Shown piece by piece: positions 121 through 34,784 of a stretch of DNA of 46,090 nucleotides (position 1 is its first letter; each line of letters begins with the position of its first letter). The notes beneath the pieces are model-generated. The model was not told the DNA's origin, made no database searches, and saw only the letters and a list, made by a program, of their open reading frames with translations. A program made the position numbers and the translations under genes. This DNA is from a virus. Location: positions 1 to 46,090 of IMG/VR virus record IMGVR_UViG_3300005468_000005; one strand, written 5' to 3'.

Positions 121-655
121 CTTGATTGAAGCGGTAGCCGTCCATGCGGTCGATGCCCTCGGCCAGCGCCTGGGCCCCGGACTGGGCTAGGCGGTAGGGG
201 AGCTCGTTGAAGTACTGGTTGACATCTTGGTTGACGATGTGATCCCAGGCGTGCATAGCGGTGCGGGTAGCGTCGCGGACAAAGCCGGGGTCTTGCTGTT
301 GGACCTGCTTCCAGTCCACGGGGAAGAAGGGGTTGAGGCCCGGGGGGGTAGCGGAGGGATCGCGCGGCTGGGTGAGCCCAGATGCCGCCGCCAGGGGGTC
401 GGTGGCGCCCAGCGGATCGTCCCCCACGCCCGCCTCTTTAGGACTACTCTTCTCCTGGGGCCCAACCTTTGGGGACGGAGGTTGGGCTCCCTGTAAAGGG
501 GCTTCGGCGCGGCCGATGGACTGCTCCTGGCGCTTGAACTGGTTGACGGCGCGGCGGGCTTCCTTGGTGGTCGCGGCCTTGGTCTCGGGCTGCTCCATGA
601 GGGCGACATCGGGGGCGTCGCCCATGTTGACCGACTCCAGCGACTGTTTGCCCAT
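1..655 (-). CDS. Large ejection-type virion protein, N-terminal part (continues at window end)
   Basis: This is the start of the same gene as 41544..46090. Its ATG at 655 shares one base with the portal stop (TGATG), and the frame is open to base 1 and continues in register past 46090. The visible N-terminus starts MGKQSLESVNMGDAPDVALM and is followed by a charged, Gln- and Pro-rich, probably disordered stretch of about 120 residues. After that comes an ordered helical region leading into the ATG at 82 (equivalent to 46052). Joined, the protein is about 1,693 residues, 191 longer than if started at 46052. I see no alternative start with comparable coupling to the portal gene. Confidence 0.85.
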   Translation of the reverse strand, partial: MGKQSLESVNMGDAPDVALMEQPETKAATTKEARRAVNQFKRQEQSIGRAEAPLQGAQPPSPKVGPQEKSSPKEAGVGDDPLGATDPLAAASGLTQPRDPSATPPGLNPFFPVDWKQVQQQDPGFVRDATRTAMHAWDHIVNQDVNQYFNELPYRLAQSGAQALAEGIDRMDGYRFNQEARAYSEAEYTARMSWIRLHDPSFLNSPAGKYLQWAHDSA

Positions 656-2607
656 CAGCTAACCCGCAGGGCTTGCTCGGGCATCGCCTCCTCGGACATG
701 GCCTTGACCCGCCCCCGGGGCGCGATGGCGCGGAGGGCGGCGGTGACGATCTCGTGGTCGCGGGGGTCGGAGATATAGAGCAAGGGCGAGTCAGTCTGGC
801 CCTGGACAAAGTCGGGGGCGAGGAAGACCGAGCCGCGCAGCTTGCTGGCGATCCCATGCAAGGCGCTCTCGATGGCGTCACTGGTGACGGGTTTGGGCAG
901 AGACGGCGGCGGCACGGAGGCACCACCGCCGTCCTGCGACATGGCGAGGGGCTTCTTAGGAGGCGAGGCCGAGGCACCTCCTGGCCCCCCGCGAGGGAAG
1001 GATACGTTGGGCACCCCGGGTTTCGGCTCCATGGCGCCGCCGGGGGCGGGATTGGCACCAGCTTGTTGCATGGCGCCGATATCGGCCTGCATCTTGGCTT
1101 CTGAGAGCTTCCAGGTTTCGACCCGGTCGCGCATCCCGATGGGGTCCTCGATGCCGGCCACCTCCCGGCCCCAGAGGTCGTCGCCGATGGAGGCGGCCAT
1201 CCCCTGCATGGCGGTGACCAGGCGGGTTTGCATGTTGGAACCGACCAGCGTGTCCCAGGTGACGTGGTTCTGGTACCAGCCGTCGATGTCGCGCTCGGGG
1301 TCGAAGTCTTCGCGGAACTCTTTGCCGTGCATCCGGCCGTAGATCTCAAAGGGTTTCTTGAGGACTTCGACCTTCTCCTGCATCTCCATGGCCTTGTGGT
1401 TGACCCTTTCTAAGATCGCTGACATGACCGCCTGTTTGAGGTCGATACGGGTAGCCTGGGGGCCCTGGCTAGCGTGCAGCGCCTTGCCGGTGGCGATACT
1501 GGAGTGCTCTTGCTCGCCCTCGGTGCGGACGCTGGTGGTGCCCGAGCCAATGTAGATGTCGTGGGTGGCGGCCGAGATCATCTGCATCGCCGGGGTGACG
1601 GTGGCCTGGGTGGGGACGGCCACGATCTCGCCGTCCTCGCGGGAGGGGGTGATGGAGCCGGGGCCGAATTCGACCTGGTCTTCGGTGAAGGCGTCGGCGT
1701 TCTTCATGTGGATAATGGGATAGGTCTGGTAGATGAGGGCGTCGTTGGCGATCTGCATGGTGGCGTTTTGGTGGTCCTGAAGGGCCATGACGTTACGGAT
1801 CTCGGAATGTGCATACTGCTCCGCGATCCCCCCGGAACCAACCACTTTGTTGAAGCACCACTCAGCCGGACAGAAGCCCAGATCGTGCTCAACATGCGCC
1901 AGCTGCTGCTTACCTACCACTACGGTCCGTTGCCAGGGGCTCAGATACGTAACCAGGAGGGTATCTTCACGGTCTTTGGCGGTGAAGCCGTATTCACGCT
2001 CCAGGGTTTCTTCGTCTTCGTAGTAGGCGATGATGAGGTCGTAGAGCTGGTGGCGACGAAAGCCCTTGAGGAAGGAGGGGTAACCATAGCGGGGGTTGAG
2101 TACGGAAATCGCGACCCGGCCCCCTTGCGCGGGCTTGTCCTCGTCATGGAAAGCTACCTCCAAAACGTAGGCACAGTCCCCCAGAAGGGGTAGGTAGAGG
2201 CCGGCCTCGGCCTGCTGCCGGTCCATCTCCGACAGCTCGTAGGTACTGAGCAGGTACTTGGTCTGGAGTTCAGCCTTGTGCTCGGCAGAATCGGCGTCGC
2301 GGATGCCGGGGGGATCGACGCGGACGCGGGGGACGCGGCCGATGAGCGCCTGGTAGTCCTCGACGATGGGGGCGATCTTGTTGACGTACCAGCTCTTGTT
2401 GTAGCCGCCGTCAAAGCCCAGGTCGCGGAGAAGGGGGCGGCCCTTGCTGTCGGCGATCTTGACCTGGTTACCCCCGCCGCCGGCGGCGGGCATGCCCAGG
2501 TAGTAGCTGAAGAAGCGGTCGTAGAGCTGGTTGCGGGCGTCGAACTGGAGGACGCGTTTGACGGCCAACTCCTGGATGCGTTCGGTGGAATAGATGACGC
2601 GGCTCAT
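655..2607 (-). CDS. Portal protein
   Basis: A 650-residue protein directly after the large terminase, at the usual position and size for a phage portal, the dodecameric ring at the packaging vertex. The N-terminal half looks like a portal clip and wing region. The central part has the long helical stretch around DLKQAVMSAILERVNHKAME typical of portal stems. Roughly residues 520-580 are a Pro/Gly/Ser-rich linker, followed by a short C-terminal domain predicted to face the capsid interior. The start at 2607 is preceded by an AGGG Shine-Dalgarno lying just outside a folded intercistronic element. The stop overlaps the ATG of the large ejection-type gene. Identification rests on position, length and general features, not on a catalytic motif. 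Confidence 0.8.
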   Translation of the reverse strand: MSRVIYSTERIQELAVKRVLQFDARNQLYDRFFSYYLGMPAAGGGGNQVKIADSKGRPLLRDLGFDGGYNKSWYVNKIAPIVEDYQALIGRVPRVRVDPPGIRDADSAEHKAELQTKYLLSTYELSEMDRQQAEAGLYLPLLGDCAYVLEVAFHDEDKPAQGGRVAISVLNPRYGYPSFLKGFRRHQLYDLIIAYYEDEETLEREYGFTAKDREDTLLVTYLSPWQRTVVVGKQQLAHVEHDLGFCPAEWCFNKVVGSGGIAEQYAHSEIRNVMALQDHQNATMQIANDALIYQTYPIIHMKNADAFTEDQVEFGPGSITPSREDGEIVAVPTQATVTPAMQMISAATHDIYIGSGTTSVRTEGEQEHSSIATGKALHASQGPQATRIDLKQAVMSAILERVNHKAMEMQEKVEVLKKPFEIYGRMHGKEFREDFDPERDIDGWYQNHVTWDTLVGSNMQTRLVTAMQGMAASIGDDLWGREVAGIEDPIGMRDRVETWKLSEAKMQADIGAMQQAGANPAPGGAMEPKPGVPNVSFPRGGPGGASASPPKKPLAMSQDGGGASVPPPSLPKPVTSDAIESALHGIASKLRGSVFLAPDFVQGQTDSPLLYISDPRDHEIVTAALRAIAPRGRVKAMSEEAMPEQALRVS

Positions 2608-2615
2608 ACTTACCC

Positions 2616-2725
2616 TGACCGGCGGAGAGCGTCTCGCGGCTTGTCGGGTGAGACGGCGTGTGTTCCCACGTTCGGCGGAACGCTCGCAAACGAGGCGTCC
2701 AAGCCACGCCTACAACCGCCGGTCA
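2616..2725 (-). ncRNA. Folded intercistronic element between terminase and portal
   Basis: A perfect 10-bp inverted repeat (2616-2625 with 2716-2725, TGACCGGCGG) brackets 90 bases. Inside are CGTCTC/GAGACG (2630-2635/2650-2655), CGTTC-GGCG-GAACG (2669-2682), CTCG-CAAA-CGAG (2683-2694) and GCGT/ACGC (2695-2698/2706-2709, extendable to AGGCGT/ACGCCT if the previous helix opens). Together they form a closed multi-branch fold. The outer helix starts in the terminase stop codon and ends just before the portal SD. It could control portal translation or mRNA processing, or act as a packaging-related DNA or RNA site; the sequence alone does not decide. Confidence 0.6.
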
Positions 2726-4420
2726 CCCCAGAAGCTCCCCGTTGTTGGTGTCATGGAGCGCTCCCGGGCGGGGGGGCCGGTTCCAGCCCCGCTCCTTGAA
2801 GCGGCGCAGGTCCACGGTCTGGCGCAGGCTGACGTTCCCGATGCGGTGGCGGATGAGGGGTTTGAAGTGGGGGAGGTGGGAGGTGCGCGACATTTCGTAG
2901 GCGTGGCGGATGACGAACCAGAGCGACATGCACATGTGGTCCTTGGCCCCCGACCCCAGGTCACGGATCTCGCGGATGAGGGCTTTGGCACCGTCGTCGG
3001 TGCCGGCGCCGCTGGGCTCGACGATGTGCATCCGGCCCTGGTGGATGAGGGTGCGGATGACGCTAAGGCCGAGGATGGGGTCGGTTTTCTTCTCCTTGGT
3101 GGTGATGTAACAGATGGTTCGGGTTTCGGGGTGCAAGCGTTCAAAAACGCTGGTGTAGGTGCCGCGCTGTTGGGAGTTGCCCTCGAAGATGACGGGGCAG
3201 TCGTGGGTACGGGCCAGTTCGGCGACGCGGTGGACCTGCTCAAAGACCCCGAGCTTGTTGGCCTCGGCGTAGAGGACTTCGAGCCGGGGCAGGGTTTCGC
3301 CATCGAGCCACTCGATGCGGGAAACGGTGATGCCGGCGTAGTCGGCGCGGCGGTTCTTGGAGCCGGAGGCGGGGTCGAGGCTAACATAGGTCCCGACAGC
3401 GAGTTGCGCGGCCTTGGCGGCGGTGCGCCTTTGAATCTCCTCGTAGGAGAGCAACTGGCCACCGCCGCTGGGGTCGAGCTCCATGGCGATGGCGAACTGG
3501 TCGGGGGTAAGGGTTGAGCGGTACTCCCGGATCTTCTGGCGTTTGGCGGGCCAGATGAGGCGGCCGGACTCGTATTTGTAGGGCTGGCGGGTCATTGAGA
3601 TATCCTGGCTGTGGAGCTTGAAATAGACCGAATCGACATCGAACGGAGTGCCCTGTACGCACCACAGTGGGCGCGTCTTGAAACTTGGGTCCTCCATGCA
3701 GCGCCAGGCTTCCTGGGTCAGCCAGCGGAACATCTCCTCGCGCTCAAACTCGCGGACGGCGCCGAGCCCTTCCAGGTCATCGAAGACAGCCTTCCCGCGA
3801 CGGCCTTTGAGCGAATGGTCGCCTTTGCCGGTGGCATACACCGAAGGGTTGCGGTTGTTGGAGTCGGAGCGGCCGGCGATGATGAGCTGGCTCTTGTTCC
3901 ATACCCCGCCCTTGCCCTCTGGTTTAGCCAGCCACGGATAGTCCCGAAGGAGGTCGTCGTTGCCTTCGAGGTGGAGGGCAATGGAGTACATCCAGCTCAT
4001 GGCATCGTGCTTGTTGGAGGCGCAGAGGATGTGGGCGGCGTTGGGGTCGTGCATCAGGGAAAGGACGGGGAAGACGACCATGCCCAGGGTTGACTTGCCA
4101 TGCTCGGTGGGGTAGAGGCGGACCATGCGCCCGCCCTTGAACATCTCTTCGAGCATGTGGCGTTGGAAGGGCATGAGGTCGTAGCCGAAGTACTGGCGGA
4201 CGAGCTGGGGGATACGGCGGGGGACGTTTTTCATCAGCTGGTTGGCGGTCTGGTCCTGGTAGCGGATCAGCGCTGGGAGCTGAGCGGCGGGGGAGGTGAG
4301 GGATTTGATGGGGACGCCGCGTTTAGAGGGGATGGTGATGGTGCCCGGCTCCAAGGGAAGTCCCCGAGCCGTTAGCTTTACCTCCGTGCGCCACTGCAGG
4401 CCAGACGGCGCATTGCCCAC
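2723..4420 (-). CDS. terL: Terminase large subunit
   Basis: A 565-residue packaging motor with ATPase and nuclease domains. The Walker A-like motif YPTEHGKST is at about residues 103-111 and the Walker B AVFDDLEG at 211-218. The RNase H-like nuclease has the first acidic residue in VSLDPASG (D349), the RADYAGI strand near 359-363, and E413 in IFEGNSQQ. It is the first gene of the leftward late unit and is followed by the folded element and portal. The start is uncertain: GTG at 4420 has a poor SD, whereas an excellent SD (GGAGG) lies 8 nt before an ACG codon at 4372. No small terminase lies next to it. Confidence 0.93.
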   Translation of the reverse strand: MGNAPSGLQWRTEVKLTARGLPLEPGTITIPSKRGVPIKSLTSPAAQLPALIRYQDQTANQLMKNVPRRIPQLVRQYFGYDLMPFQRHMLEEMFKGGRMVRLYPTEHGKSTLGMVVFPVLSLMHDPNAAHILCASNKHDAMSWMYSIALHLEGNDDLLRDYPWLAKPEGKGGVWNKSQLIIAGRSDSNNRNPSVYATGKGDHSLKGRRGKAVFDDLEGLGAVREFEREEMFRWLTQEAWRCMEDPSFKTRPLWCVQGTPFDVDSVYFKLHSQDISMTRQPYKYESGRLIWPAKRQKIREYRSTLTPDQFAIAMELDPSGGGQLLSYEEIQRRTAAKAAQLAVGTYVSLDPASGSKNRRADYAGITVSRIEWLDGETLPRLEVLYAEANKLGVFEQVHRVAELARTHDCPVIFEGNSQQRGTYTSVFERLHPETRTICYITTKEKKTDPILGLSVIRTLIHQGRMHIVEPSGAGTDDGAKALIREIRDLGSGAKDHMCMSLWFVIRHAYEMSRTSHLPHFKPLIRHRIGNVSLRQTVDLRRFKERGWNRPPRPGALHDTNNGELLG

Positions 4421-10644: not shown

Positions 10645-10645
10645 C

Positions 10646-20125: not shown

Positions 20126-20511
20126 CGCCCGCAATCCCTCCCGGGTGGACCGGGTGGACCCGGGGGACCGGGAGGGCCGGTCAATCCCCGAGTTCCCGGT
20201 GGCCCTTGGGGCCCGGCGGGGCCTGGGATTGGTGCCTGGGCCTGCAGGATCTCGATCTCAGCCCGAAGGGCGTCGATCTCGGCCTCGTCGGCGTCCAGAC
20301 GGTGCCGCTGATCCTCTAGGCTATCGCGGTTGGCGATGATGGTGGGCTGGAGCCGCTCCGTCAGGGCCTTGCGGAGGGTGCTTTCGCCGCTGTGCAGGGC
20401 CTTCTCATCACCCTGGACCTGCACGAAGAGATAGCCTACGGTCCCGATCCCAGCCAAAAGGATCGCGGTGGTCAGCGCCAGGGCCAGGCCCACCCGGTTC
20501 CAGAAACTCAC
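20113..20511 (-). CDS. Membrane-anchored coiled-coil collagen-like protein
   Basis: 132 residues. N-terminal transmembrane helix (about 8-32), helical coil (LTERLQPTIIANRDSLEDQR, then DADEAEIDALRAEIEIL), then Gly-x-y repeats (GPAGPQGPPGTRGLTGPP and on), ending CGRCRN. Collagen repeats in phages trimerise and serve as spacers in fibres. Here the membrane helix and position among lysis genes suggest spanin-like or surface use instead. The role is not settled. Confidence 0.7.
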   Translation of the reverse strand: MSFWNRVGLALALTTAILLAGIGTVGYLFVQVQGDEKALHSGESTLRKALTERLQPTIIANRDSLEDQRHRLDADEAEIDALRAEIEILQAQAPIPGPAGPQGPPGTRGLTGPPGPPGPPGPPGRDCGRCRN

Positions 20512-20888: not shown

Positions 20889-22031
20889 CTATACCCCGAT
20901 GTCCTCTACATGGATGAAGGCGGGGGCGACGGTAGCAGCGTTCAGGTTCATAGCCGTACCTGTGCCAATGCGAATCATGGAGAGCTTGTAGGTATGGGTC
21001 CCCGCGCTGGGCGTCAGGAGCACGACCGGCATACAGCTATTGAGTTGCCCGATGTTATTTTCAGACGCTTGCGATCGCTGTAATTCGGTAGCCCCTTCAT
21101 AAATTGAAAACAGCACGGCATCATTGGTCTGGTTGCCAGTGAAGGACGTGGCGTAGCCTGTAACTCGAATCCGCCGTCCCGTTCCCACCGTGACCGTGAC
21201 CGCCAGGCCGGTAACGTCGGTCTGCGCGCCATTGGTGGCAAAGGTGCTGGTGATCTGAGCATACCCGAGCGTGCCCCAGGCATGAGTCTGGGCTAGCGAC
21301 GCCTCGGGGATGGCAGCCGCGTTGAACACCGGGTTGGCATTGAACGTCTTGGCTCCAGTGATCGTCTCCGCCCCCGCGAGATGCACCGCCAGGGAGTCGG
21401 TGGCGGGCAGCGGGGTCACGTCGGCGATGGGGATGGAGGCGGTGTTGAAGACCGGGTTGGCGCTAAAGGTCTTGATCCCGGTGATGCTCTCGGCCCCAGC
21501 GAGGTGGACGGCTAAGGAGTCGGTGGCAGGCGTGGGAGAGATGTCGGCCAGGGGGATGGAAGCCGCCGGGAAGGTGACGGCACCGGTCACGCTCAGTCCC
21601 CCCGAGGCGGTCAGCAAGCCGGTCACGGAGAGCGGGTTGTTGAGCGTGGTGGTGCCCACCGGCAGCGTTGCCGGGGTGGTCACCGACAGCGAAGATGCCT
21701 GGTACGGCCCTACCGCAGCCGTGATCTGAATGTCGAAAGACCGCACCGGGGTCTGCACCGAGTAGACGGTGTTGGCGGGGGAGATGAGGACGTTGGGCAC
21801 CAGCGAGATCGACCAGAAGCCGTTACGGTCGGTGAGGACGTACATGGTGCGGGTGTCAAGGTTGGTCAAGGGCGCGACGTTGGTGGTCTGGTTGGCCTGC
21901 AGGGTAACGCCCACGCGGGCGTCTACCAAGGGGTTGCCGCTCGGGTCGTACTCGTAGTCGAAAACGGTGACCAAGCTGAGAGCCTGGGCACTGCTGACGG
22001 CTGCGGGTGGGGGGCTCAGGATGATCGGCAT
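20889..22031 (-). CDS. Tail-fibre protein with internal repeats
   Basis: 380 residues from ATG 22031 (TAATG with the previous stop). N-terminal beta domain (VTVFDYEYDPSGNPLVDARV), then two 41-residue repeats of the type SIP-ADvtP-PATDSLAVHLAG-E-ITG-KTF-ANPVFN and a partial third. The C-terminal beta domain (GYAQITSTFATNGAQTDVTG to VEDIGV) is related to the 31320..31814 protein. Repeats plus a conserved tip fit a fibre or a receptor-contact protein. Confidence 0.7.
   Translation of the reverse strand: MPIILSPPPAAVSSAQALSLVTVFDYEYDPSGNPLVDARVGVTLQANQTTNVAPLTNLDTRTMYVLTDRNGFWSISLVPNVLISPANTVYSVQTPVRSFDIQITAAVGPYQASSLSVTTPATLPVGTTTLNNPLSVTGLLTASGGLSVTGAVTFPAASIPLADISPTPATDSLAVHLAGAESITGIKTFSANPVFNTASIPIADVTPLPATDSLAVHLAGAETITGAKTFNANPVFNAAAIPEASLAQTHAWGTLGYAQITSTFATNGAQTDVTGLAVTVTVGTGRRIRVTGYATSFTGNQTNDAVLFSIYEGATELQRSQASENNIGQLNSCMPVVLLTPSAGTHTYKLSMIRIGTGTAMNLNAATVAPAFIHVEDIGV
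21321..21566 (-). repeat. Tandem 123-bp repeats in the fibre gene
   Basis: Two adjacent 123-bp units begin at about 21321 and 21444 on the plus axis and encode the 41-residue repeats. They differ at scattered third positions, so duplication is not recent. Confidence 0.7.
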
Positions 22032-24397
22032 TAGGTCACCACCGGCATCCCGAACCGATCCACCAGGGGCGCGACCAGCGCCGTCCATTCATAGTCGTCA
22101 CTACCCATCCCGTGTCCGCGCATCGAGTAATACTCCTTGAGCTTCCCGGTGCTGAGCCACTCGTTGTAGACCCGCCGGATGACGCGGAAGGCGATGTCCT
22201 GGGCCGCCTGGTTCATGTTGTAGTTGAGCAGTCCCTGAATCGCCTGATACTCCAGAAACACCCAATGACTTCCCTTCTGGTAGTCGGGCTGGTTACCCTC
22301 GCTGCCCCCCTGATGGGAGTCGTCAGTCTCTGGGCGCACCCAGGTCCGCTTGCCCATCCGGGGCGAGATTATGAGACCGTTGGGAGAGGCGAAAACAAAC
22401 CCCTGCGGGTAGCTGCTGGCGACCAACTTGAGCAGCTTCAGGGCGCCGGTCGCCCCGGCGGGCTGGTAGAGCCAGACAGCGTGAGGGAAGCCGCCATCCG
22501 TGATGCCGACGGTGGTATCGGTCCTGGTGGTCCCGGCCACCCCTCCGGTGAAGACCGTGTCAATGGGAGCGGTCGCCCCAGGACCATTGATGGAGGGCTG
22601 GATTCCATAGGCGGTCTGGGTTGAGATCTTGACGTTGGGGCCACCGCCCGTAGGCACGATGTAGGTCGGGGAGATGGTGAAGGGGCGAGCGGGCGAGGAC
22701 AGCTCCCAGGGGCCACGATAGAAGAGGAAGTCATTGTTGGTGTCGAGGTCGTCGCGGTAGCGGAGAACGTTGAAGCTGCGGCTGGGGTTGCTGAGCGAGA
22801 GCTGGGTCTGGGTCCCCCCGCCGTTGATGGTCACCCCGTCGATGTTCACGGTGATGGCCCCAGGGTTGAGGTCGGCGGCAAAGGTCTTCTGCGGCCCCAG
22901 CCACTCGACGTGGTTGAAGCGCAGCAGGCGGTTGTTGGGGAAGCCCGAGCCGAACCACATCTCGTAGTCCTGGCGGTCGGCTCCAGTGTACTCCTTGAGT
23001 AACTGCTCCTGCACCATGCGCTGGGCCCGGTAGGCGCTGGGCACCCCCGCAAACAGAGGGCCCGCGATGTTGGCCAGGTTCTTGCCGTAGTAGAAGAAGC
23101 GGAAGATTGAGAACTCGTTGTCGGGGATCGAACTGGCCACCCCTGCGAGCAGGTTGAGCACGGTGTCGCCGGTGCGCTGCCCCGCTGGTCCGATCTGTGC
23201 CACCACCCCATTGCCAAAGATCACCTTGGTCCCGGGAGCCAGGTTGCGATCCAGCCCCGGGGCCTTGAGGTTGACGGTGGGAGAGTATTGGTTGGTGACC
23301 CCGTTGGTGTTGACGGCGTTGCCCACCGAGAGCACGTCCTGGCGGGTGGTGTACTGGTAGAGTCCCTGCTCGTCGTCCCACATCACCAGGTTCATCGTGG
23401 TCTTGAGGTTGTCGCGCAGGGTGGCATAACCCGCCGCCTCGCCGGGAGCCACGATGGCTGCGATCTTGGAGATGGAGTCCAGCATGAGGACGATGTAGGA
23501 ACAGAGATCAGGGCAACAGTAGTTGAGCTTGCCGGGATTGGTGTCACACTGTGGCCCCAGGTTATCTACGTCCCCGGTGGGCCCGTAGAGGGTCTCCAGG
23601 TTGTCCATCCCCGCCTCCTGCGCAGCCTCGAAGGTCGCTGCCAGGAGATCGGCGGCTGATTGTGTGCCACCCCCCATCGCCACTGTACAGCCCCAGGAGT
23701 AAAGATTGCTGGGTAGACCGTAAGTGCTGGTGGTGTCGGCGCGGTTCAAGGACCACCAGGTGTATTCCCGCTTGAGCGCCGGGTACATGTAGGCGAGAAA
23801 GGCATTGTCCTGTGTCTTGAGCCAAACCTGGTAGGTGGCCCAGGCTAGAACCGGCACCTGGCTAGACTTGTTGTAGACGGTGGTGGGCGAGATCGCCCGG
23901 CCCATCATCCCATTGGTCGTCGTTCCACCACTCAACTGCGAGCCAGGCCAGTTCTTGAGCCAGTTCTGAGCTACCAGTCCCAGGCCCAGGCTGGCAGCGG
24001 CAGCGGACAGCCAGCAAGAGTCGTGCAGGAACTGGGAGTCGGTCACCCCACCCACTCCTCCGGGCCGGAAGTCGGCGCCGGGATAGACGTAGTCGAAGGT
24101 CAGGTTGCCGCTGGCGGTAGCCCGGTTGGAGGTGATGCAACGCTCGATGATGGCCTGCTGGAAGACCGCCGCGGTGGCATAGGAGACGATATAGCCGGTA
24201 TCCACCACGGTGTAGGTGATGTTGTCGGGACTGGTGCTGACGGTGTAGATCCCCGAGGGAACATCGGGCGTAATCTGCCCCTGGGCGCCGCTGCGGCCAA
24301 GGTCGTAGGTGCCCCCGGTCTGGTTGTTGACCAGCCTGACGTAGATCCCCGATCGGGCGTAGACGGTGTTGAGCAGGAAGTCGGTAAAGGCTGGCAT
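22031..24397 (-). CDS. Tail-associated six-hairpin glycosidase (GH63/trehalase-like toroid)
   Basis: 788 residues. The first 70 residues (GIYVRLVNNQTGGTYDLGRS and on) form a small beta domain like a fibre linker. The rest is an alpha,alpha-toroid with TDSQFLHDSCWLSAAAASLG (119-138), then GYATLRDNLKTTMNLVMWDD and WDDEQGLYQYT, the tight turn and strand typical of GH63/GH37-like enzymes, and a final DDYEWTALVAPLVDRF. An inverting hydrolase acting on host surface glycan is likely. Catalytic acids cannot be fixed by eye. Coupled by TGATG to the previous fibre gene. Confidence 0.65.
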   Translation of the reverse strand: MPAFTDFLLNTVYARSGIYVRLVNNQTGGTYDLGRSGAQGQITPDVPSGIYTVSTSPDNITYTVVDTGYIVSYATAAVFQQAIIERCITSNRATASGNLTFDYVYPGADFRPGGVGGVTDSQFLHDSCWLSAAAASLGLGLVAQNWLKNWPGSQLSGGTTTNGMMGRAISPTTVYNKSSQVPVLAWATYQVWLKTQDNAFLAYMYPALKREYTWWSLNRADTTSTYGLPSNLYSWGCTVAMGGGTQSAADLLAATFEAAQEAGMDNLETLYGPTGDVDNLGPQCDTNPGKLNYCCPDLCSYIVLMLDSISKIAAIVAPGEAAGYATLRDNLKTTMNLVMWDDEQGLYQYTTRQDVLSVGNAVNTNGVTNQYSPTVNLKAPGLDRNLAPGTKVIFGNGVVAQIGPAGQRTGDTVLNLLAGVASSIPDNEFSIFRFFYYGKNLANIAGPLFAGVPSAYRAQRMVQEQLLKEYTGADRQDYEMWFGSGFPNNRLLRFNHVEWLGPQKTFAADLNPGAITVNIDGVTINGGGTQTQLSLSNPSRSFNVLRYRDDLDTNNDFLFYRGPWELSSPARPFTISPTYIVPTGGGPNVKISTQTAYGIQPSINGPGATAPIDTVFTGGVAGTTRTDTTVGITDGGFPHAVWLYQPAGATGALKLLKLVASSYPQGFVFASPNGLIISPRMGKRTWVRPETDDSHQGGSEGNQPDYQKGSHWVFLEYQAIQGLLNYNMNQAAQDIAFRVIRRVYNEWLSTGKLKEYYSMRGHGMGSDDYEWTALVAPLVDRFGMPVVT

Positions 24398-25191: not shown

Positions 25192-27144
25192 CTAAACAAT
25201 GCTCTCGCTAAGGGTCAGTTTCACGTGCCACTCCAGGTCGGCAGCCCGTAAAGGGGTGTTCACCTGGCGTTGGGGGGAGTAGGCGGTGGCTTCTAAGTTC
25301 TGAATCTCGGTGGTGTACTGGGTGCCGTCGGGGTGGATCAGGGTCAGAGGGAGGGCGTTCTCCCACGCCTGCGAGAGGAGCAGCTTGAGGTCGCCGCCCA
25401 AGTAGTTCTGGGGGTCGGGGTTGTTGCCCAACACCTGGCGCTTGTTGGTGCAGTCCACGGTGAACTCCCAAGACCACGGCACCGCAATCTCCATCGAGGT
25501 GTAGTAGACGATGGGGGTGGTGCTCTGCGCCGCCCCGGCGGTGAGGGTGATGACGAAGAACATCGAGAAGCCGGTGGTGTGGGTGGGCAGGCTCAAGGTG
25601 GTGGTGACGGTGCCCACGGTGGAATTGGTAACGCTGCCGGTGGGGGTAGCGCTGCTGACCCATTTGGTGGGGTCGGCGTCCACATACGCCTGCAGCTGGA
25701 TGGACTGACCAGCAGTCAAGGGCGAGTGGTGGGCGATAACGCGGCGAAAGAGCTTGCCGATGCCGGGGGTGTTGAAGTCAATCCGCGAGCTGCAGAGCTG
25801 GCCTGAAGGGGCGTAGGCAGGCGTGGGGGTGTACTTGGACTGGTTGGACTGGTACTGCACCTGGCCCACGCCGGCGCTGGGGCTGCCGGGATAGATCACC
25901 GCCCGGCCGATGAAGGCCACCGAGCGCAGCCCGGTGGTGACCACGTCAGTGGCGGCGCCGTTGCCGATGTGGCTAAGGGACTGGTTGAGCACGTCGTAGA
26001 CCCACACATACGGCGCCGAGCTGACGCCCGCGATGGTGGGCGGGTTCTGGGTGAAGCCAATGTACTGGCCACTGGCGGTGGGGCCACCCAGGGTCGAGGC
26101 GGTGGCGGTCTCTGAGGGGATGCCCAGAGTAGCGACGACGTTGAAGCTGCCGCCTGAGATCTGCAGCAGCACGGGGGCGTCGAACTGGGTGGTAGGGGTG
26201 GCGGTGAGGAAGAGGTTGCCGAGGCAGTTGCAGATGCCGTTGCATAAATATCCATTGAGCCGCAGGATCAGCTGCATGTTATTGCCGTCGTGGTACCAGA
26301 CGTTGGAGCCCGGAGAGCCGTTGGAGTCGTTGGTCGCCATGGCCACGCCGCTACCGTACTCGCAGAGGTCCGCGACCGCCAGGTTGAGGGCTGCGGTGGG
26401 CAAGGCGACGTTAGCTAAAGAGCCCATGTCGATGCGCCCGAAGGTGGCGGCACCGCCCACCACGTTCTGGGTCCAATACACAAAGCGGCCACCGGTGCCC
26501 TGGTTGACAGCCCAGATCTGGGTCATGGGGTTGGGGAAGGGAATGGAGCTGCTGGCAGGCGTCACCGTGGTATAGGCGGTAAGATCGGTGGTGTAGCGCA
26601 GGCTGCCGTCGAGGTCGGAGATGAACAAGACCCCGCTATCGGTGTCCATGGCGTTGACGGGGATGGGGGCAGTGAAGGTGCCGGTGGAGTTGTAGATGTT
26701 GCCGCTGGCCTCGTGGAAACTGACGACCACGTCACCGTTGAAGGTCACCGCCTGGATGGTGCCGTCGGCATCCAGGGCGCCCAGGGTGGGGAAGACCTTG
26801 CGGTTGTTGGCGGGGCGGAGGGTGAGGCTGCCGGGGGTGCGGATCTCCAGGTCGGCATCGTAGTACTTGTGGGTCTCCAGCCAGATCTGCTGGAGGCCGC
26901 CGCCGGAAACATCGCCCACCGTCTCTCTTGGCCAGGTGGCGAGGTCGCGGTCGGTGATCTGAGGGCTGGCCTGGATCAACTGGCTTTGGGCCTTGACATC
27001 GGTTTTCTGCACGAATTGGGTGCCGTTGACGAGCATGTAGCCGGCGCTGGTGAGCTCTCCACCAGCGGTGGTGGTGCCCAGGCCGAGGTGGTAGACGGCA
27101 CCGATGTTGGCAGGGTCAACGGTTGCGCCGGCGGGGATGGTCAT
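25192..27144 (-). CDS. Tail nozzle-like structural protein
   Basis: 650 residues rich in beta-strands. Repeated blocks (VLFISDLDGSLRYTTDLTA; RFVYWTQNVVGGAATFGRID; YVWVYDVLNQSLSHIGN) read as propeller blades, and a beta-sandwich end carries EFTVDCTNKRQVLGNNPDP. In short-tailed phages the nozzle (T7 gp12-like) is a propeller protein between adaptor and fibres, which is its position here. Function by analogy. ATGA overlap with the ClpX-like gene. Confidence 0.6.
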   Translation of the reverse strand: MTIPAGATVDPANIGAVYHLGLGTTTAGGELTSAGYMLVNGTQFVQKTDVKAQSQLIQASPQITDRDLATWPRETVGDVSGGGLQQIWLETHKYYDADLEIRTPGSLTLRPANNRKVFPTLGALDADGTIQAVTFNGDVVVSFHEASGNIYNSTGTFTAPIPVNAMDTDSGVLFISDLDGSLRYTTDLTAYTTVTPASSSIPFPNPMTQIWAVNQGTGGRFVYWTQNVVGGAATFGRIDMGSLANVALPTAALNLAVADLCEYGSGVAMATNDSNGSPGSNVWYHDGNNMQLILRLNGYLCNGICNCLGNLFLTATPTTQFDAPVLLQISGGSFNVVATLGIPSETATASTLGGPTASGQYIGFTQNPPTIAGVSSAPYVWVYDVLNQSLSHIGNGAATDVVTTGLRSVAFIGRAVIYPGSPSAGVGQVQYQSNQSKYTPTPAYAPSGQLCSSRIDFNTPGIGKLFRRVIAHHSPLTAGQSIQLQAYVDADPTKWVSSATPTGSVTNSTVGTVTTTLSLPTHTTGFSMFFVITLTAGAAQSTTPIVYYTSMEIAVPWSWEFTVDCTNKRQVLGNNPDPQNYLGGDLKLLLSQAWENALPLTLIHPDGTQYTTEIQNLEATAYSPQRQVNTPLRAADLEWHVKLTLSESIV

Positions 27145-28247
27145 GGCTGCAGCAGCACCGGGTCTTCAGACATCGCCCGGGGGACATCGAGGACGACCTT
27201 GCCCGACCCCTTCTTACTGGCCTGGTAGAGGGCCTTGGAGAACTTGCGCGAGAAGACGTGCTCCAGGCCACGGGCGCCGGTTCCCCGCTGTAGAGCCTTG
27301 TCGGCCAGCGTCCGAAGCCCCTCCTCAGAGTAGACCAGCTTGACCCCACAGGCTTGGAAGCGGCCCACGTACTCGTCCAGTAGGCCCCCCTCCTCCATCA
27401 GGATGACGGCCAAATGGTCAGGGCGCAGGGGCTTGAACATGATGTGGTGGGGGAGGCGGCCGGCCAGCTCGGGGAGGAGGCCATAGCGCACAAAGTCGGC
27501 GGGCTCGGACTGATCCCACGCCTCGGGCTGGGTGGTCATGTCGCGCTGCAGGCGCTTGCCGATGATCTTCTCCAGGCCGACAAAGGCGCCGGCACAGATG
27601 ATGAGCACCTTGGTGGTATCAAAGGCCAGCCCGATTTCGTCCTCATCGTCGGTGACATAGGTGTGGCCACCCTCGATCATCTTCAGAAGCTCCCCCTGCA
27701 GCGCCTTGCCAGGGTTGCGCCCAAGCGCATCCGAGGCTTGCTGCATCCACTTGTCGAACTCGTCCAGGAGCACCACCCCGGACTGCGCCTTCTCAATCGC
27801 AGGGTCGAGGATGCGGCGGTCGATCTTGAGGATGTTGGTGGGGTCGTCGCTCTGGATCAGGTTGTAGATCTCCTTGCCGTACTTGGCTTCCAGGTCCTCC
27901 TCCTCCATCATGATCGCGGCTTCGATCAGGGGCAGAAAGATCTGTGAGAGGTCGGGGCCAACGTAGCCCTTGTCGGTGTACTGGGTGGCGTTGCACTCGG
28001 CAAAGGGGAGGCCGCACTTCTCGGCCATGATGCGGATGGTCATGGTCTTGCCGGTGCCGGTGCGGCCGGCGCAAAGCGCGCCTGAAGACCGGGGCAGTTC
28101 ACCTCTGGCCACCCTGGTCTGGCGCTCCAAAAGGACCGCGATTGCTTCCTTGGCGTCCCGTTGCCCGATCACCCGGTCGGCGCCCTCGTAGAGGGCGGCG
28201 GCGGTGGGAGCCGGGCTAACCCCGAGGGCCGTAGTGGTTAAGGTCAT
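27141..28247 (-). CDS. ClpX-like AAA+ unfoldase
   Basis: 368 residues. Walker A GRTGTGKT 61-68, pore loop TDKGYVGPDL 91-100 (ClpX/HslU GYVG), Walker B VVLLDEFDKW 158-167, FDTTKVLIICAGAFVGLEKI as in ClpX, GLLPELAGRLP 256-266, and sensor-2 GTGARGLEH 322-330. It lacks the N-terminal zinc domain of ClpX. The segment that holds the ClpP-binding IGF loop (KRLQRDMTTQPEAW) has no IGF, so it should not dock ClpP. An insertion about 112-150 is not in ClpX. It lies between adaptor and nozzle genes, so it may remodel virion proteins or host factors. Confidence 0.85.
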   Translation of the reverse strand: MTLTTTALGVSPAPTAAALYEGADRVIGQRDAKEAIAVLLERQTRVARGELPRSSGALCAGRTGTGKTMTIRIMAEKCGLPFAECNATQYTDKGYVGPDLSQIFLPLIEAAIMMEEEDLEAKYGKEIYNLIQSDDPTNILKIDRRILDPAIEKAQSGVVLLDEFDKWMQQASDALGRNPGKALQGELLKMIEGGHTYVTDDEDEIGLAFDTTKVLIICAGAFVGLEKIIGKRLQRDMTTQPEAWDQSEPADFVRYGLLPELAGRLPHHIMFKPLRPDHLAVILMEEGGLLDEYVGRFQACGVKLVYSEEGLRTLADKALQRGTGARGLEHVFSRKFSKALYQASKKGSGKVVLDVPRAMSEDPVLLQP

Positions 28248-29172
28248 AACTGGTAACCCCCCGCTTCTTGAAGCCGGGGCCGTAGGTACGGGAGAGCAAG
28301 GTCAGGGCTTCGTTGAAGCGGCGCTCGAAGTCCTTGGCGGTGTTGAGCATCATCATCGGCGCCGTCCCCCCCTCCTGGGTCACGGGCACAGTGGTATCCT
28401 CACGATCGCGCACCGCCTCCTGCTTCGCCAGCAAGGTGGAGCAGGCATACCAGACTGGTAGGTGGTATAGCTGGGGTTCGAGATCTCCAAGGTTGAGGTA
28501 CGGGCCCCAGCCGCTTATCCGAAGCCGGGCCACGGGGCTGTAGCGCTGGGAGTGGGGAATCGAGATCTTGTCCAGCCCCACCCGCTTCCAAGCCGTCAGC
28601 GGCCGGTAAGGCTCAGTGGGGATGTCGGGGTCGATCACGCTGATGGCGACGATGGCGCTGCGGGGATCGCTGAAATAGCTCGGCAGGGTGTAGTCCCAGA
28701 CGTTGACCTGGATCTGGATGGTGTTGTCAACGTAGGTCTTGCCGACCTTGGGGAACATCATCCGTAGGCCCGCGTAGAGCGCGGTGAGGATGGCCTGGTC
28801 AGACCAGTGGACGAAGGGGTAGCTGAAGACGATGGGGACCGTGCCCGGGGCGGTGGGGAAGAACCACTCGCCGGTGTTGTAGTTGACGTAGAACTGACCG
28901 GTAGCGGGGGGGTAGGTGGCAGAGAGCGTCTGGGCCACGCCGTTGACAGTGCAGGCGGGGACGTAGGGAGCCACACCGCCGTCGTAGAGCGGCTTCTGGG
29001 GCATGATGAAGGGGCCGCCCCCCGCACCCACCACGCCGTTGACGCTGTCGCCAGTCCTGGAGGCGCCGGTGAGCTGGGGGTAATCGCGCAGGGCGTCGCG
29101 CACGTCGGCGATCCAGTTGGCGTCCTGGAGCCCGGTCTCAGCCCCCAGTTTGGCCCCTGGTATGGCTGGCAT
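28216..29172 (-). CDS. Head-tail adaptor-like protein
   Basis: 318 residues from ATG 29172 (SD AGGAAG). Long helix (ANWIADVRDALRDYP), a beta region (GQFYVNYNTGEWFFPTAPGT), then ILTALYAGLRMMF and LYHLPVWYACSTLLAKQEAV. A mixed helix-strand adaptor next to a nozzle-like gene would be gp11-like in short-tailed phages. Ends 32 bp inside the ClpX-like gene. Confidence 0.55.
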   Translation of the reverse strand: MPAIPGAKLGAETGLQDANWIADVRDALRDYPQLTGASRTGDSVNGVVGAGGGPFIMPQKPLYDGGVAPYVPACTVNGVAQTLSATYPPATGQFYVNYNTGEWFFPTAPGTVPIVFSYPFVHWSDQAILTALYAGLRMMFPKVGKTYVDNTIQIQVNVWDYTLPSYFSDPRSAIVAISVIDPDIPTEPYRPLTAWKRVGLDKISIPHSQRYSPVARLRISGWGPYLNLGDLEPQLYHLPVWYACSTLLAKQEAVRDREDTTVPVTQEGGTAPMMMLNTAKDFERRFNEALTLLSRTYGPGFKKRGVTSYDLNHYGPRG

Positions 29173-29696: not shown

Positions 29697-29887
29697 TTCC
29701 GCCTGCGCCCCTTGGCCTTGCCCTTGCCCCGGCCCTTGTGCCGTCCCCGGCCCTTCTTGGCGGCAGCGGCCAGCAGCATCATGGTCATGGGGTCAGGACC
29801 GGAGGCGCCGCCCCCGCCCGGCGGCGGCCCTCCGGCTGGCCCGCCACCAGGCGGTGGACCCCCGCCCATCTGGCTGGGATCTATCAA
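29693..29887 (-). CDS. Low-complexity basic protein
   Basis: 64 residues from TTG 29887, which overlaps the HNH stop and has AAGGAGG 8 nt upstream. Gly/Pro runs (GGGPPPGGGPAGG), a short Met/Ala helix, then an all-basic tail (KKGRGRHKGRGKGKAKGRRR) that could bind DNA or RNA. A start at 29962 would lie within the HNH gene. Confidence 0.5.
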   Translation of the reverse strand: MIDPSQMGGGPPPGGGPAGGPPPGGGGASGPDPMTMMLLAAAAKKGRGRHKGRGKGKAKGRRRK

Positions 29888-30327
29888 AGTGCGGCCCTCC
29901 TTTTTCTGTAGGCCGCCGTCGCAGCGTTTCTGCATTTCCGGCATCCGCGCTGGCCGTGCCACATATGGGTGTTGGCTTCATCGAAGAGGTGCCCCTTCAC
30001 GCAGGTGTCTTTGGCCGCATTTCGTGCAGCAAAAGAGATCCCACGCAAGACGTTCTCCCGCTGAGTAACCGCCTCTAGGTGGCTGGGATTGACACAGCCT
30101 TTGTTGCCGCAGGTGTGATGTACGACCAACCCGGCGGGGATGCCTCCATGAACGAGGGAATACATGGCTCGATGGGCACCTCGGATCTTCTTCCCAGCAA
30201 CAGTCACCATGACCACGCCGTATCCATCTGGGTCTCGGAAGCCGGTCCATTCCCAGCATTGCTCCGAGGCCCGGATCTTGGCCGCGAATTGCGGTTTCAC
30301 CGCCGCAACTGCAGCTATGTCAACCAT
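29884..30327 (-). CDS. HNH homing endonuclease
   Basis: 147 residues from ATG 30327. WEWTGFRDPDGYGV, then a core LVVHHTCGNKGCVNPSHLEA with the paired His and Asn-x-x-His of the HNH nuclease, and a second Cys-rich end (CVKGHLFDEANTHMWHG, CRKC). A typical freestanding mobile nuclease inserted in a phage late unit. Confidence 0.85.
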   Translation of the reverse strand: MVDIAAVAAVKPQFAAKIRASEQCWEWTGFRDPDGYGVVMVTVAGKKIRGAHRAMYSLVHGGIPAGLVVHHTCGNKGCVNPSHLEAVTQRENVLRGISFAARNAAKDTCVKGHLFDEANTHMWHGQRGCRKCRNAATAAYRKRRAAL

Positions 30328-30328
30328 C

Positions 30329-30511
30329 TCAGCCCCGCCTGCGAGCCGGGCGCCGCCTGGCGGACAGACGCCTACCAATCGAGGTTGGGGTCAGCTTGCG
30401 GACAGAAGAGAGCATTGTGGGCTCGCCTACGGGCGATGCCGGTCCCCCCTTGAGGGTTGACGGCGCCCGCATTATGGGGTTCGAGGTGCCGCCGCCGAGC
30501 GTCCAGCCCAT
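30329..30511 (-). CDS. Small basic hypothetical protein
   Basis: 60 residues from ATG 30511 (SD GGAGG 12 nt upstream), ending TGAGATG at the HNH start. Gly/Ser-rich start, then a strongly Arg-rich end (SIGRRLSARRRPARRRG). No family recognised. Confidence 0.5.
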   Translation of the reverse strand: MGWTLGGGTSNPIMRAPSTLKGGPASPVGEPTMLSSVRKLTPTSIGRRLSARRRPARRRG

Positions 30512-30516
30512 GGCCG

Positions 30517-30759
30517 CTACACCCCTCCGCTGTACTTGAAGTCACCGGACTTCTTGTCGATGCCCGGCTTGTTCAGGTCCTTGCCCGTGTCGGCGGTGCC
30601 GATCTGGACGAAGTGGGGGGCGTTACTCTTGGGGTCCTTGTCGCCGTAGCCGGTGCCAACGCGGTTGGCCTGCTCTGCCTCGGTACCGAAGAAGTACAGT
30701 TCGCCTTCAGGCAGAGCCCCAGTCCCCAGCTTCCCGCCCTGCTTTCCTTTCCTAGCCAT
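30517..30759 (-). CDS. Small late protein
   Basis: 80 residues from ATG 30759 (SD GGAGG). Hydrophilic Gly/Lys start (MARKGKQGGKLGTGALPEGE), a strand with LYFFGTEAEQANRVGTGYG, and a Lys-rich end. Overlaps the LAGLIDADG stop by 8 bp. Unknown function. Confidence 0.55.
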   Translation of the reverse strand: MARKGKQGGKLGTGALPEGELYFFGTEAEQANRVGTGYGDKDPKSNAPHFVQIGTADTGKDLNKPGIDKKSGDFKYSGGV

Positions 30760-31204
30760 TACTAACCTCCTCGCCCAATGAAGGGCGAAACTGATTGAGC
30801 GCCACGACCTTATCCCGAAGCGCAATACGCTGGGCCTGGATTACAGGGTCCAGCTTGCGGCTACCACCACGGTAGGCGCCCTTGGTAACTAGTTCGGCAA
30901 ACGCCACCACCAGCTCGGCCTGCTCGCGCTTGCATACGAGATACGGCAGTAGTAGCCGACAGGCGGCGGCGGCCTGGTGGTTGCGGAGGTCCCAGACATA
31001 CTGCTCGCGCCAGCCTTGCTTCTGGGGCCGCTTCCATCGCACCTTCCCGCCAAAGAGGGTGGCCAGCCTCACCAGCATCCGAGGGTCGGTGTTGCCCACA
31101 GACAAGACTCCTACCACCTGCCCATTGTTGGGGACGTGGAAGATGGTGGCAGTACCCTCGCCGTCGATGATCCCGGCGGCCCAGGCTAGGTCAGTTGGCT
31201 TCAT
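30752..31204 (-). CDS. LAGLIDADG-type homing endonuclease
   Basis: 150 residues. The motif LAWAAGIIDGEGTATI at residues 6-21 is the single LAGLIDADG helix with its metal-binding Asp, then VLSVGNTDPRMLVRLATLFG and KQGWREQYVWDL strands. Single-motif enzymes work as dimers. Freestanding (not in an intron here), so mobile. Confidence 0.85.
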   Translation of the reverse strand: MKPTDLAWAAGIIDGEGTATIFHVPNNGQVVGVLSVGNTDPRMLVRLATLFGGKVRWKRPQKQGWREQYVWDLRNHQAAAACRLLLPYLVCKREQAELVVAFAELVTKGAYRGGSRKLDPVIQAQRIALRDKVVALNQFRPSLGEEVSNG

Positions 31205-32356: not shown

Positions 32357-32766
32357 TAGGTCCCCTTCTGGTAGTAGGTAAAGGTCACATTGACCACCTG
32401 GGCGGTGCCGGTGACAGCGGTGACCATGATGGTGTCGCCCGCGGTCAGCGGCCAGGGGAAGTTGACCCCGGTGTTGACGGTGTTGGTGCTAAGGGTGGCG
32501 TCTACCGCCACCCCCTGCGCCGTGGTCGTGCTGGGCGTGGTGATGTCGTTCTGCAGGGTCCCGGCAGCGTTGCGCTGCGTCACCCGGATGCTGGTGCCCG
32601 CGATGGCGGCATCCGAGACGTAGCAGACCTCGCTAAGGAAGTCCTGCCCGGCATCCACCTGACCCCGGGGGAAGCCGAGGTAGGTGAACCCCGCCTTGGT
32701 CGGGGGCCCGGTGGTACCGACGTTGACCGCTATGGCCCTGGCGCCGATTGACTTGCGGAGTGGCAT
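32356..32766 (-). CDS. Beta-rich protein next to the capsid gene
   Basis: 136 residues. SIGARAIAVNVGTTGPPTKA, then LTAGDTIMVTAVTGTAQVVN. The immediate downstream neighbour of the major capsid gene and likely a decoration protein, by position only. Confidence 0.55.
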   Translation of the reverse strand: MPLRKSIGARAIAVNVGTTGPPTKAGFTYLGFPRGQVDAGQDFLSEVCYVSDAAIAGTSIRVTQRNAAGTLQNDITTPSTTTAQGVAVDATLSTNTVNTGVNFPWPLTAGDTIMVTAVTGTAQVVNVTFTYYQKGT

Positions 32767-33980
32767 TAGAGCGAGAGGTTAGTGTGGAGCGAGTGGCTGA
32801 ACCCGACATCGGAGCCGGTGTTGCGTACCTCCAATGACCACTTACTGAGCGCCCGCACAGCGTCACCATCACGGAAGCTTGGGGCGGTGATGGTATAGAA
32901 CATCTGATTGACGAAGGGCCGAATCCGAATTCGGCTCATGTCAAGGATGTAGAGCTGCGCCGTCCCCGAGGTGTCGTTGAGGTAAGCATCAGTAACGATG
33001 CGGTGCTCGTTGGCCATGGTGGGGGTGAAGTACTGGGCGAAGAAGCCACGGTGGCGTTCGTCCTGATCTAGTCGGATGCGGTCGGTGTACAGGAGGGAGA
33101 TCTTCTCGGTGACGTTGATACCGCCCACCATCACGTTGCTAAAGCCACCGCCACGGTAGATGTTTTTGACCATGGTGTTGACCACGGTGTCGGTGAGCGC
33201 CTCTGAGGTGCTGATGAAGCTGGCCGGAGAGCCCGTGGTGCTGGTGGTGTTGGCGGTGCCGTTGAGCCAGGTGGTGACTCCAAAGAAGGAGCTGTAGTCA
33301 CCACCGGTGGTGCTGGAAGCCGCCACTGAGAACCAGTAGGCGTTCTGCATCTTCCGCTTCAGCTCCATGAGCCGCTGCTGGAATTGGTACTGCAGCTCGT
33401 CCTTGATGCCGGGCGCGTACCCCGTGCGTGACCGCTCGATCTGCTCGGAGTCGATGTTGACGTTGAGCTCGAAGCGGTTGATGTAGTTGACCTTCGACAG
33501 CCGAGCGCGGGTCATGTCCTTGCCCAGGTCGGAGTTCTGGTAGGTTGGGGCGTTGATGATGCGCCAGGTCTGGGCAGCGGCATCGGTGGTGGCGGTAGTA
33601 CCACCGTAGCCACGGGTGGTGGTGACCGCGGTACCGGAAATGGTGGTGATCTCCACGATCTCGCCGGCGCCGGCCTGGGTGTCGCGCTGGAGCAGGTAGC
33701 CCACGTCGAGCACGGCGGCGTCAGAAGCGGAGAAGTTGAGGACGACGTTGGTGGTGGCGCCGGTGAAGGCGGTGCCGGTGTCGGTTACCTTGAACTGGTT
33801 GAGGCTATCCTCGACCCACTTGAGCTGCTGATCGGCGAACTCCTCACCTACTGTGGTAAGGCCGAGCATGTTGTTTTCGAAGTAGAGCGAGGCCAAAAGG
33901 ACATCGCTGATGTCGTCACGCTTGGTCCCAGTCGCGCTCAGGTCTGAGGCGGCTACACCAGAGTGGATGAGCAGTGGCAC
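32766..33980 (-). CDS. Major capsid protein (HK97 fold, SU10/DUF5309-like)
   Basis: 404 residues from GTG 33980 (GGAGG 9 nt upstream; a longer start at 34025 lies inside the leader). The order fits DUF5309/SU10-type capsid proteins: an N-terminal arm (GVAASDLSATGTKRDD), a beta P-domain (VVLNFSASDAAVLDVGYLLQ), the spine-helix region with NYINRFELNVNIDSEQIERS and QQRLMELKRKMQNAYWF, and a C-terminal strand set (RPFVNQMFYTITAPSFRDGD). The scaffold is encoded upstream, decoration genes downstream. Confidence 0.8.
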   Translation of the reverse strand: MPLLIHSGVAASDLSATGTKRDDISDVLLASLYFENNMLGLTTVGEEFADQQLKWVEDSLNQFKVTDTGTAFTGATTNVVLNFSASDAAVLDVGYLLQRDTQAGAGEIVEITTISGTAVTTTRGYGGTTATTDAAAQTWRIINAPTYQNSDLGKDMTRARLSKVNYINRFELNVNIDSEQIERSRTGYAPGIKDELQYQFQQRLMELKRKMQNAYWFSVAASSTTGGDYSSFFGVTTWLNGTANTTSTTGSPASFISTSEALTDTVVNTMVKNIYRGGGFSNVMVGGINVTEKISLLYTDRIRLDQDERHRGFFAQYFTPTMANEHRIVTDAYLNDTSGTAQLYILDMSRIRIRPFVNQMFYTITAPSFRDGDAVRALSKWSLEVRNTGSDVGFSHSLHTNLSL

Positions 33981-34138
33981 TGGTAGGTTCCTCCAGAGAT
34001 GGTTGTTCTCTGGACTCGCCAGCAACCTTCCGGTTGCCAGTGACCTACCTCGTTACCGAGTTGCCACGGCCTAACGACATCGCGCTAGGCGGGTCCTGTT
34101 GGAACGAAGCCTACTCCTGCCCCTTCAGGAAGTCAAGA
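33981..34138 (-). promoter_or_regulatory. Structured 5' leader of the capsid gene
   Basis: About 158 nt without a gene. TCCAGAGA (33992-33999) pairs exactly with TCTCTGGA (34007-34014) and overlaps the SD, so opening is needed for full translation. A GCAACC-TTCC-GGTTGC hairpin lies at 34022-34037, CTCG-TTAC-CGAG near 34049, and CCTG-CCCCTT-CAGG near 34115. Possibly autogenous control of the most abundant virion protein. Confidence 0.45.
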
Positions 34139-34478: not shown

Positions 34479-34784
34479 CTATCTCCCTTGGGCGCGAGCG
34501 GCGGCCTGCGCGTGGCGAACGTTGTAAGCATCGAGGTCGGCGAGCATCTCGTCGGCCTCGGGTGAGGCCAACGGTACCATCCGAGAGGCGTCGTGGCCGT
34601 TGGGGCAGTAGAGCCCGAAGCCCGGCGTGTGGTCAAAGATGTGGCCACAGTCGTAGCAGCGGTACTGCACTACACCCGGGGCAGGGACGGAAGGGGGGAG
34701 AGGTCCCGCCGCCCCGACCTTGGCGTCGAGTTTATCGACGATCGACTCCAACCGGCTGAGCCGCAGCTCCAGCTCGTTGAGCAA
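34479..34784 (-). CDS. Coiled-coil plus zinc-ribbon protein
   Basis: 101 residues from TTG 34784, the most plausible start because longer versions lie within the glycosyltransferase gene. Coil LLNELELRLSRLESIVDKLD, Pro linker, then a zinc ribbon (YRCYDCGHIFDHTPGFGLYC, CPNGHD). The frame is clear; the start has no strong SD. Confidence 0.55.
   Translation of the reverse strand: MLNELELRLSRLESIVDKLDAKVGAAGPLPPSVPAPGVVQYRCYDCGHIFDHTPGFGLYCPNGHDASRMVPLASPEADEMLADLDAYNVRHAQAAARAQGR

Follow-up and report, generated by a model that had tools for sequence, protein, structure and literature searches.

We describe a phage-only family of AAA+ proteins of the ClpX/HslU group, the genes of which occupy one position in the structural operons of four phages and are coupled to a gene for a nozzle-like candidate tail protein. 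Judged by its sequence, the protein analysed here is not a ClpX and is better named as a member of a separate phage-only family of this group. We propose that it is a phage-specific unfoldase acting in virion morphogenesis with no peptidase partner, a reading whose chances we rate as evenly balanced. ClpX and HslU homologues are already known from jumbo phages; what appears to be new is a ClpX/HslU-group gene in a phage tail operon, and we found no report in the open-access literature of a ClpX-like gene in such a setting.

The window, that is, the whole stretch of 46,090 nucleotides analysed (IMGVR_UViG_3300005468_000005), carries an exact 120-base terminal repeat and therefore looks like a complete 46-kb genome. 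Including the window, four genomes carry the family, all of them from metagenomic, uncultured phages that are only distantly related to one another. Successive profile scans retrieved the three relatives: G001 (IMGVR_UViG_3300012001_000002, 42,221 bp), with an AAA+ protein 50% identical to that of the window; G002 (IMGVR_UViG_3300015076_000005, 43,279 bp; second scan), 57% identical; and the more distant L108, also listed as G008 (IMGVR_UViG_3300047388_000191, 43,338 bp; third scan), 32% identical. The features of the window are collected in Table 1.

Table 1. Features of the window, with residue numbers referring to the AAA+ protein.
Feature	Position	Strand	Basis
AAA+ gene, predicted ClpX/HslU-group unfoldase, 368 aa	27141..28247	-	ORF, ATG start; Pfam, PDB, model
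Walker A GRTGTGKT, residues 61-68	28044..28067	-	Alignment to E. coli ClpX K125/T126; K67=K125
Pore-1 loop GYVG, residues 94-97	27957..27968	-	Aligned to ClpX Y153/V154; Y95=Y153
Helical insert of 36 residues, 112-147	27807..27914	-	Alignments; absent from ClpX; site of HslU I domain
Walker B DEFDK, residues 162-166	27750..27764	-	Aligned to ClpX D184/E185; E163=E185
Shortened IGF-loop site LQRDMTTQPEAWDQSE, residues 233-248, without IGF tripeptide	27504..27551	-	Alignment; model turn 234-240
GLLPELAGRLP, residues 256-266, with Arg finger R264	27450..27482	-	Aligned to ClpX R307
GTGARGLEH, residues 322-330, with sensor 2 R326	27258..27284	-	Aligned to ClpX R370
Upstream coupled gene (318 aa), labelled 'adaptor' from its position alone	28216..29172	-	Kept in 4/4 genomes; 32-nt overlap with AAA+ gene
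Downstream coupled gene, 650 aa, nozzle-like	25192..27144	-	Kept in 4/4 genomes; fold matches; ATGA 4-nt overlap with AAA+ gene
Major capsid protein, SU10_MCP family, same operon as AAA+ gene	32766..34025	-	Pfam 3.1e-21; PHROG 1328
Portal protein	655..2607	-	PHROG 104, 1.3e-6
Terminase large subunit	2723..4420	-	PHROG 38, 5e-32

Fold, motifs and family placement

The window AAA+ protein matches AAA_2 and ClpB_D2-small in Pfam, and its best PDB sequence match is a ClpX (Neisseria, 1.3e-38), with identity to ClpX of about 30%. An AlphaFold2 model built from 36 window and locus sequences reached a mean pLDDT of 92.2. Comparison of this model with ClpX and HslU, which the first-pass annotation had suggested as a check on its claim of a ClpX-like protein, gave a VIA-align Z of 33.0 for ClpX (2.5 Å over 318 residues) and of about 26.9 for HslU, and structure searches returned no fold closer than these two. 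The ClpX-like motifs named in that annotation (GYVG, Walker A and B, GLLPELAGRLP and GTGARGLEH) were all found and align to their counterparts in E. coli ClpX, and the sequence hallmarks of the ClpX/HslU group are all present, namely large and small AAA+ domains, both Walker motifs, an aromatic pore-1 loop, an Arg finger and a GAR sensor 2. The catalytic residues are kept in all four homologues, and the pore loop reads GYVG in three of them and GWAG in L108. Differences between the window and G002 at codon positions 1, 2 and 3 amount to 0.35, 0.29 and 0.585, and the AAA+ reading frame is thus under purifying selection. The unbroken set of motor residues speaks for a motor that actively pulls, and from sequence and model the protein is very probably an intact, active unfoldase of the ClpX/HslU group.

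The ClpX label itself stood as regards the fold but not as regards membership. The NCBI ClpX equivalog models, whose cut-offs are 359 and 370.75 bits, gave the window protein 163.5 and 145.1 bits and the E. coli ClpX control 691 and 719. E. coli HslU reached 232.5 and 192.5 bits on the same models; it outscores the window protein, which by that measure is therefore further from ClpX than HslU is. The HslU equivalog model gave 89.3 bits, with a cut-off of 362.45. In an HslU-rooted IQ-TREE phylogeny of 50 sequences, 39 of them ClpX, the proteins of the window, G001, G002 and L108 form one phage-only clade (support 99.2/100), which falls outside the clade of all 39 ClpX, cellular and jumbo-phage alike (96.6/97). 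Because the branches are long and support at the deeper nodes is moderate (86.5/82 and 89.8/81), the branching order of ClpX, HslU and the phage clade is uncertain. The host-like position within ClpX that the annotation had named as evidence against its reading was not found, and these sequence data exclude that a host ClpX was recently transferred. No AAA+ relative appeared in bacterial genomes in two scans with the AAA+ alignments, which used narrow peptide patterns.

A further homologue, L104, joins the phage clade with mixed support (79.5/98). It is a minimal ClpX-like protein of 284 residues without zinc domain or IGF loop, encoded amid replication genes (9998-10852, plus strand) of a 72.6-kb viral contig, and given those neighbours we rejected it as evidence of a tail role. 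The window also encodes a second AAA ATPase (phrog_10440; 10604-12172, plus strand), in an oppositely transcribed region.

Conserved gene order and neighbouring genes

In all four genomes the order is capsid protein, smaller genes, a 318-residue-type gene, the AAA+ gene and a 650-residue-type gene, so that the search of related virion operons proposed in the first-pass annotation located the gene at the same structural-operon position in three further genomes. The end of the AAA+ gene and the start of the gene after it share 4 nt in the window (ATGA) and in L108 and 8 nt in G002, and the two genes abut in G001, the start codons of the G002 and L108 genes being uncertain. On its other side the AAA+ gene is overlapped by the upstream gene in three of the four genomes; in L108 an HNH-similar ORF (9226-9969) lies between them. 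HNH endonuclease genes also occur in the structural operon of the window (29884-30378 and 30752-31204, minus strand), at positions that differ from that in L108, and the same operon contains a glycosyltransferase-like gene (phrog_12406; 34732-35523, minus strand).

The capsid proteins of the relatives are 41-77% identical to that of the window, and a capsid-protein bait retrieved the same three genomes as the AAA+ bait; among these capsid-scan relatives (four genomes in all, which is few) none lacked the AAA+ gene. No relatives emerged when viral contigs were scanned with the AAA+ protein or the terminase singly, and the nozzle-like, terminase and capsid proteins had none among 50,697 named phage records.

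The identities that the first-pass annotation had given to the two coupled neighbours fared differently. The upstream gene had been called an adaptor, a label that comes from gene order and is without homology support: the 318-residue protein gave no match to the T7 and SU10 adaptors in profile comparison, and one of its relatives matched phrog_7578, a family of unknown function. The name nozzle for the downstream gene was partly borne out. Foldseek's top PDB matches to the model of the 650-residue protein included P22 gp10, the Pa223, SU10 and cyanophage Pan3 tails and Sf6 gp8, but the model is of low confidence (pLDDT 43) and these tail matches are mixed with sialidase beta-propellers, at low TM-scores of about 0.2. 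We regard the nozzle-like assignment, which comes from this model, as a supported lead and not as proof. PHROG scans of the two neighbours returned no known-function family that identifies them, and profile comparison of both with the adaptor and nozzle proteins of T7 and SU10 was null, which is uninformative because the nozzles of T7 and SU10 themselves share no detectable sequence similarity (PMC9509320).

Several other proteins encoded on the minus strand of the window deserve mention. Downstream of the nozzle-like gene, a 788-residue protein (22031-24397) has MGH1-like glycoside hydrolase and trehalase matches, and neither G001 nor the compared stretch of G002 showed a counterpart. A 636-residue protein with a GH16 glycosidase domain (18224-20134) is possibly a lysis protein or depolymerase. 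After the portal gene, a 1,502-residue protein (41544-46052), which shares only some 22% identity with the corresponding G001 protein across half of its length, is a candidate ejection protein and a possible client of the unfoldase.

Gene position shows co-expression and not an assembly role, and structural operons often house phage accessory genes, as the glycosyltransferase and HNH genes of the window exemplify. The AAA+ protein might accordingly be a remodeller of host defence, transcription or envelope proteins, for which a late operon merely suits expression; a related HslU-like protein of a jumbo phage has been discussed as possibly acting in replication or in overcoming host defence (PMC10299810). 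We consider this unlikely. Accessory genes usually come and go, whereas the AAA+ gene occurs at the same site in each of the four genomes, coupled to the nozzle-like gene, and PADLOC yielded only weak generic AAA matches. That the AAA+ gene stays tightly coupled to the nozzle-like gene, even as the HNH genes around it vary, suggests a virion client instead.

Missing ClpX parts and a possible protease partner

Both absences from the ClpX architecture that the first-pass annotation had pointed out were confirmed. The zinc domain (zf-C4_ClpX, PF06689) went unmatched in the window protein, as in the other three phage AAA+ proteins, in a Pfam search in which the E. coli ClpX control scored 1.1e-20. 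The IGF segment, counted between the alignment columns of window residues R232 and P249, comprises 16 residues in the window, G001 and G002, 14 in L108 and 4 in HslU, compared with 23-34 in every aligned cellular and viral ClpX, nearly all of which have an IGF-type tripeptide. In the AlphaFold2 model of the window protein the site is a tight turn of seven residues (234-240) between helices 225-233 and 241-246, and neither alignment nor model revealed the clear IGF loop that would have spoken against the original reading. The shortened loop of G002 (LGKSIGLNVDLSEMIQ) keeps SIGL and that of L108 (HPGLGVEATWAALG) contains LGV. Because a partial tripeptide persists in these two, loss of the tripeptide is claimed firmly, from the alignment, for the window and G001 only; in G002 and L108 a residual or altered protease contact may exist.

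Two further departures had been left unmentioned in the annotation. The RKH loop, described as unique to ClpX-family enzymes (PMC7112951), is missing: in the alignment to E. coli ClpX, R228 and K229 are gapped and H230 is aligned to D. Between the pore loop and Walker B, the window protein has an insert with short helices at 116-123, 127-131 and 136-141 (AlphaFold2 model; block pLDDT 91-96), which is shorter in L108.

Compared with ClpX, whether bacterial or from jumbo phages (for example, Bacillus phage G gp258), the window protein thus has the same AAA+ domains, Walker motifs, GYVG, Arg finger and GAR sensor 2, but differs in the three missing parts, the insert, the separate clade, the low identity and the sub-cut-off scores. 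With HslU (ClpY) it shares the lack of a zinc domain and IGF loop and an insertion between pore loop 1 and Walker B; however, its insert has 36 residues where the HslU I domain has more than 100, its IGF-site segment is longer, its HslU-model score is far below the cut-off and no HslV gene was found. The HslU-like proteins of Erwinia jumbo phages (ChrisDB gp132) are likewise phage-encoded, without zinc domain or IGF loop and with an insertion at the same site, but this insert is very long, no tail genes are annotated alongside and the tree branch is a different one. A second protein from this Erwinia jumbo-phage group, RAY gp116, is described as HslUV-family and localises to the phage nucleus (PMC10299810).

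The four phage records contained no detectable ClpP-fold (PF00574) or HslV-fold (PF00227) gene. As the ClpP-docking segment is also gone in the window protein, unfolding without degradation is the simplest reading of these sequences, and we infer independence from a protease. Alternatively, the protein could still deliver substrates to the ClpP or HslV of the host by a contact that has been reshaped, so that scaffold or host proteins are degraded. ClpA docks ClpP via an IGL loop and HslU docks HslV without an IGF loop, ClpX is the closest fold and SIGL is kept in G002, all of which would agree with such a partnership. We nonetheless think it quite improbable, since the IGF segment is halved and carries no such tripeptide in the window or G001, the four records lack a detectable phage ClpP or HslV, and the scores lie below both the ClpX and the HslU equivalog cut-offs.

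Possible role in building the virion

At least as improbable, in our view, is that the protein is a passenger of the virion, packaged and ejected with the DNA and acting early in infection on ejection proteins or host targets. Its gene is encoded among virion proteins, but it has no packaging signal, and co-translation with tail genes would equally fit an assembly factor outside the particle. A recently acquired host ClpX fragment, decaying or neutral, could account for the identity of about 30% and for the lost zinc domain and loops, but is already contradicted by the purifying selection, the full set of catalytic residues, the old separate clade and the two bacterial genome scans without a relative, and we give it hardly any credence. 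From gene context we infer both a function in virion morphogenesis, which is more likely than a stray host gene, and a virion substrate.

For such a morphogenesis role, the AAA+ protein would presumably be a late product whose translation is coupled to that of the two putative tail-conduit proteins, and would probably form a hexameric ring. Its GYVG pore loops could take hold of a virion protein by a tag or loop, with ATP driving the pull; likely clients would be the nozzle-like protein, the 318-residue coupled protein or an ejection protein. While the tail is being built, the client would then be remodelled, taken apart or loaded by this pull, with no feeding of a protease chamber. By analogy with the HslU I domain, the helical insert would lie on the entry face, where it probably selects substrates in place of the zinc domain and RKH loop.

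The nearest analogy in role is Pvc15 of extracellular contractile injection systems, an AAA+ ATPase encoded in a tail-like particle operon and thought to unfold and load cargo (PMC11495950). Pvc15 is needed for cargo loading, and particles can assemble without it but then have no payload (PMC11495950). It differs from the window protein in its tandem AAA domains and contractile particle, the likeness being one of role only; on this analogy, the phage motor may load or thread an ejection or conduit protein as Pvc15 loads cargo. Where the gene neighbourhoods of other phage ClpX homologues were checked, they held topoisomerase, metabolism, ClpP, replication or other genes not annotated as tail. 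One candidate phage ClpX, MT835572.1 (L002, 'Bacteriophage sp.' in GenBank), was rejected, as it belongs to an ordinary bacterial tig-clpP-clpX operon and is apparently bacterial DNA.

The general view is that short-tailed phages form their tails by self-assembly on the portal, with no energy source, and to our knowledge the well-studied T7, P22 and SU10 build theirs without such an ATPase. Conservation of an unfoldase gene in coupling with one for a nozzle-like protein would mean that some remodelling or loading is powered by ATP. We suggest tentatively, and at somewhat less than an even chance, that a lineage of phages with small genomes and probably short tails employs a dedicated motor of the ClpX/HslU group, free of any peptidase, for tail assembly or ejection-protein loading, an ATP-driven step undescribed for such virions. 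If this is true, the family would show a case from nature in which a ClpX/HslU-type motor has shed its protease and become specialised in the construction of virus particles.
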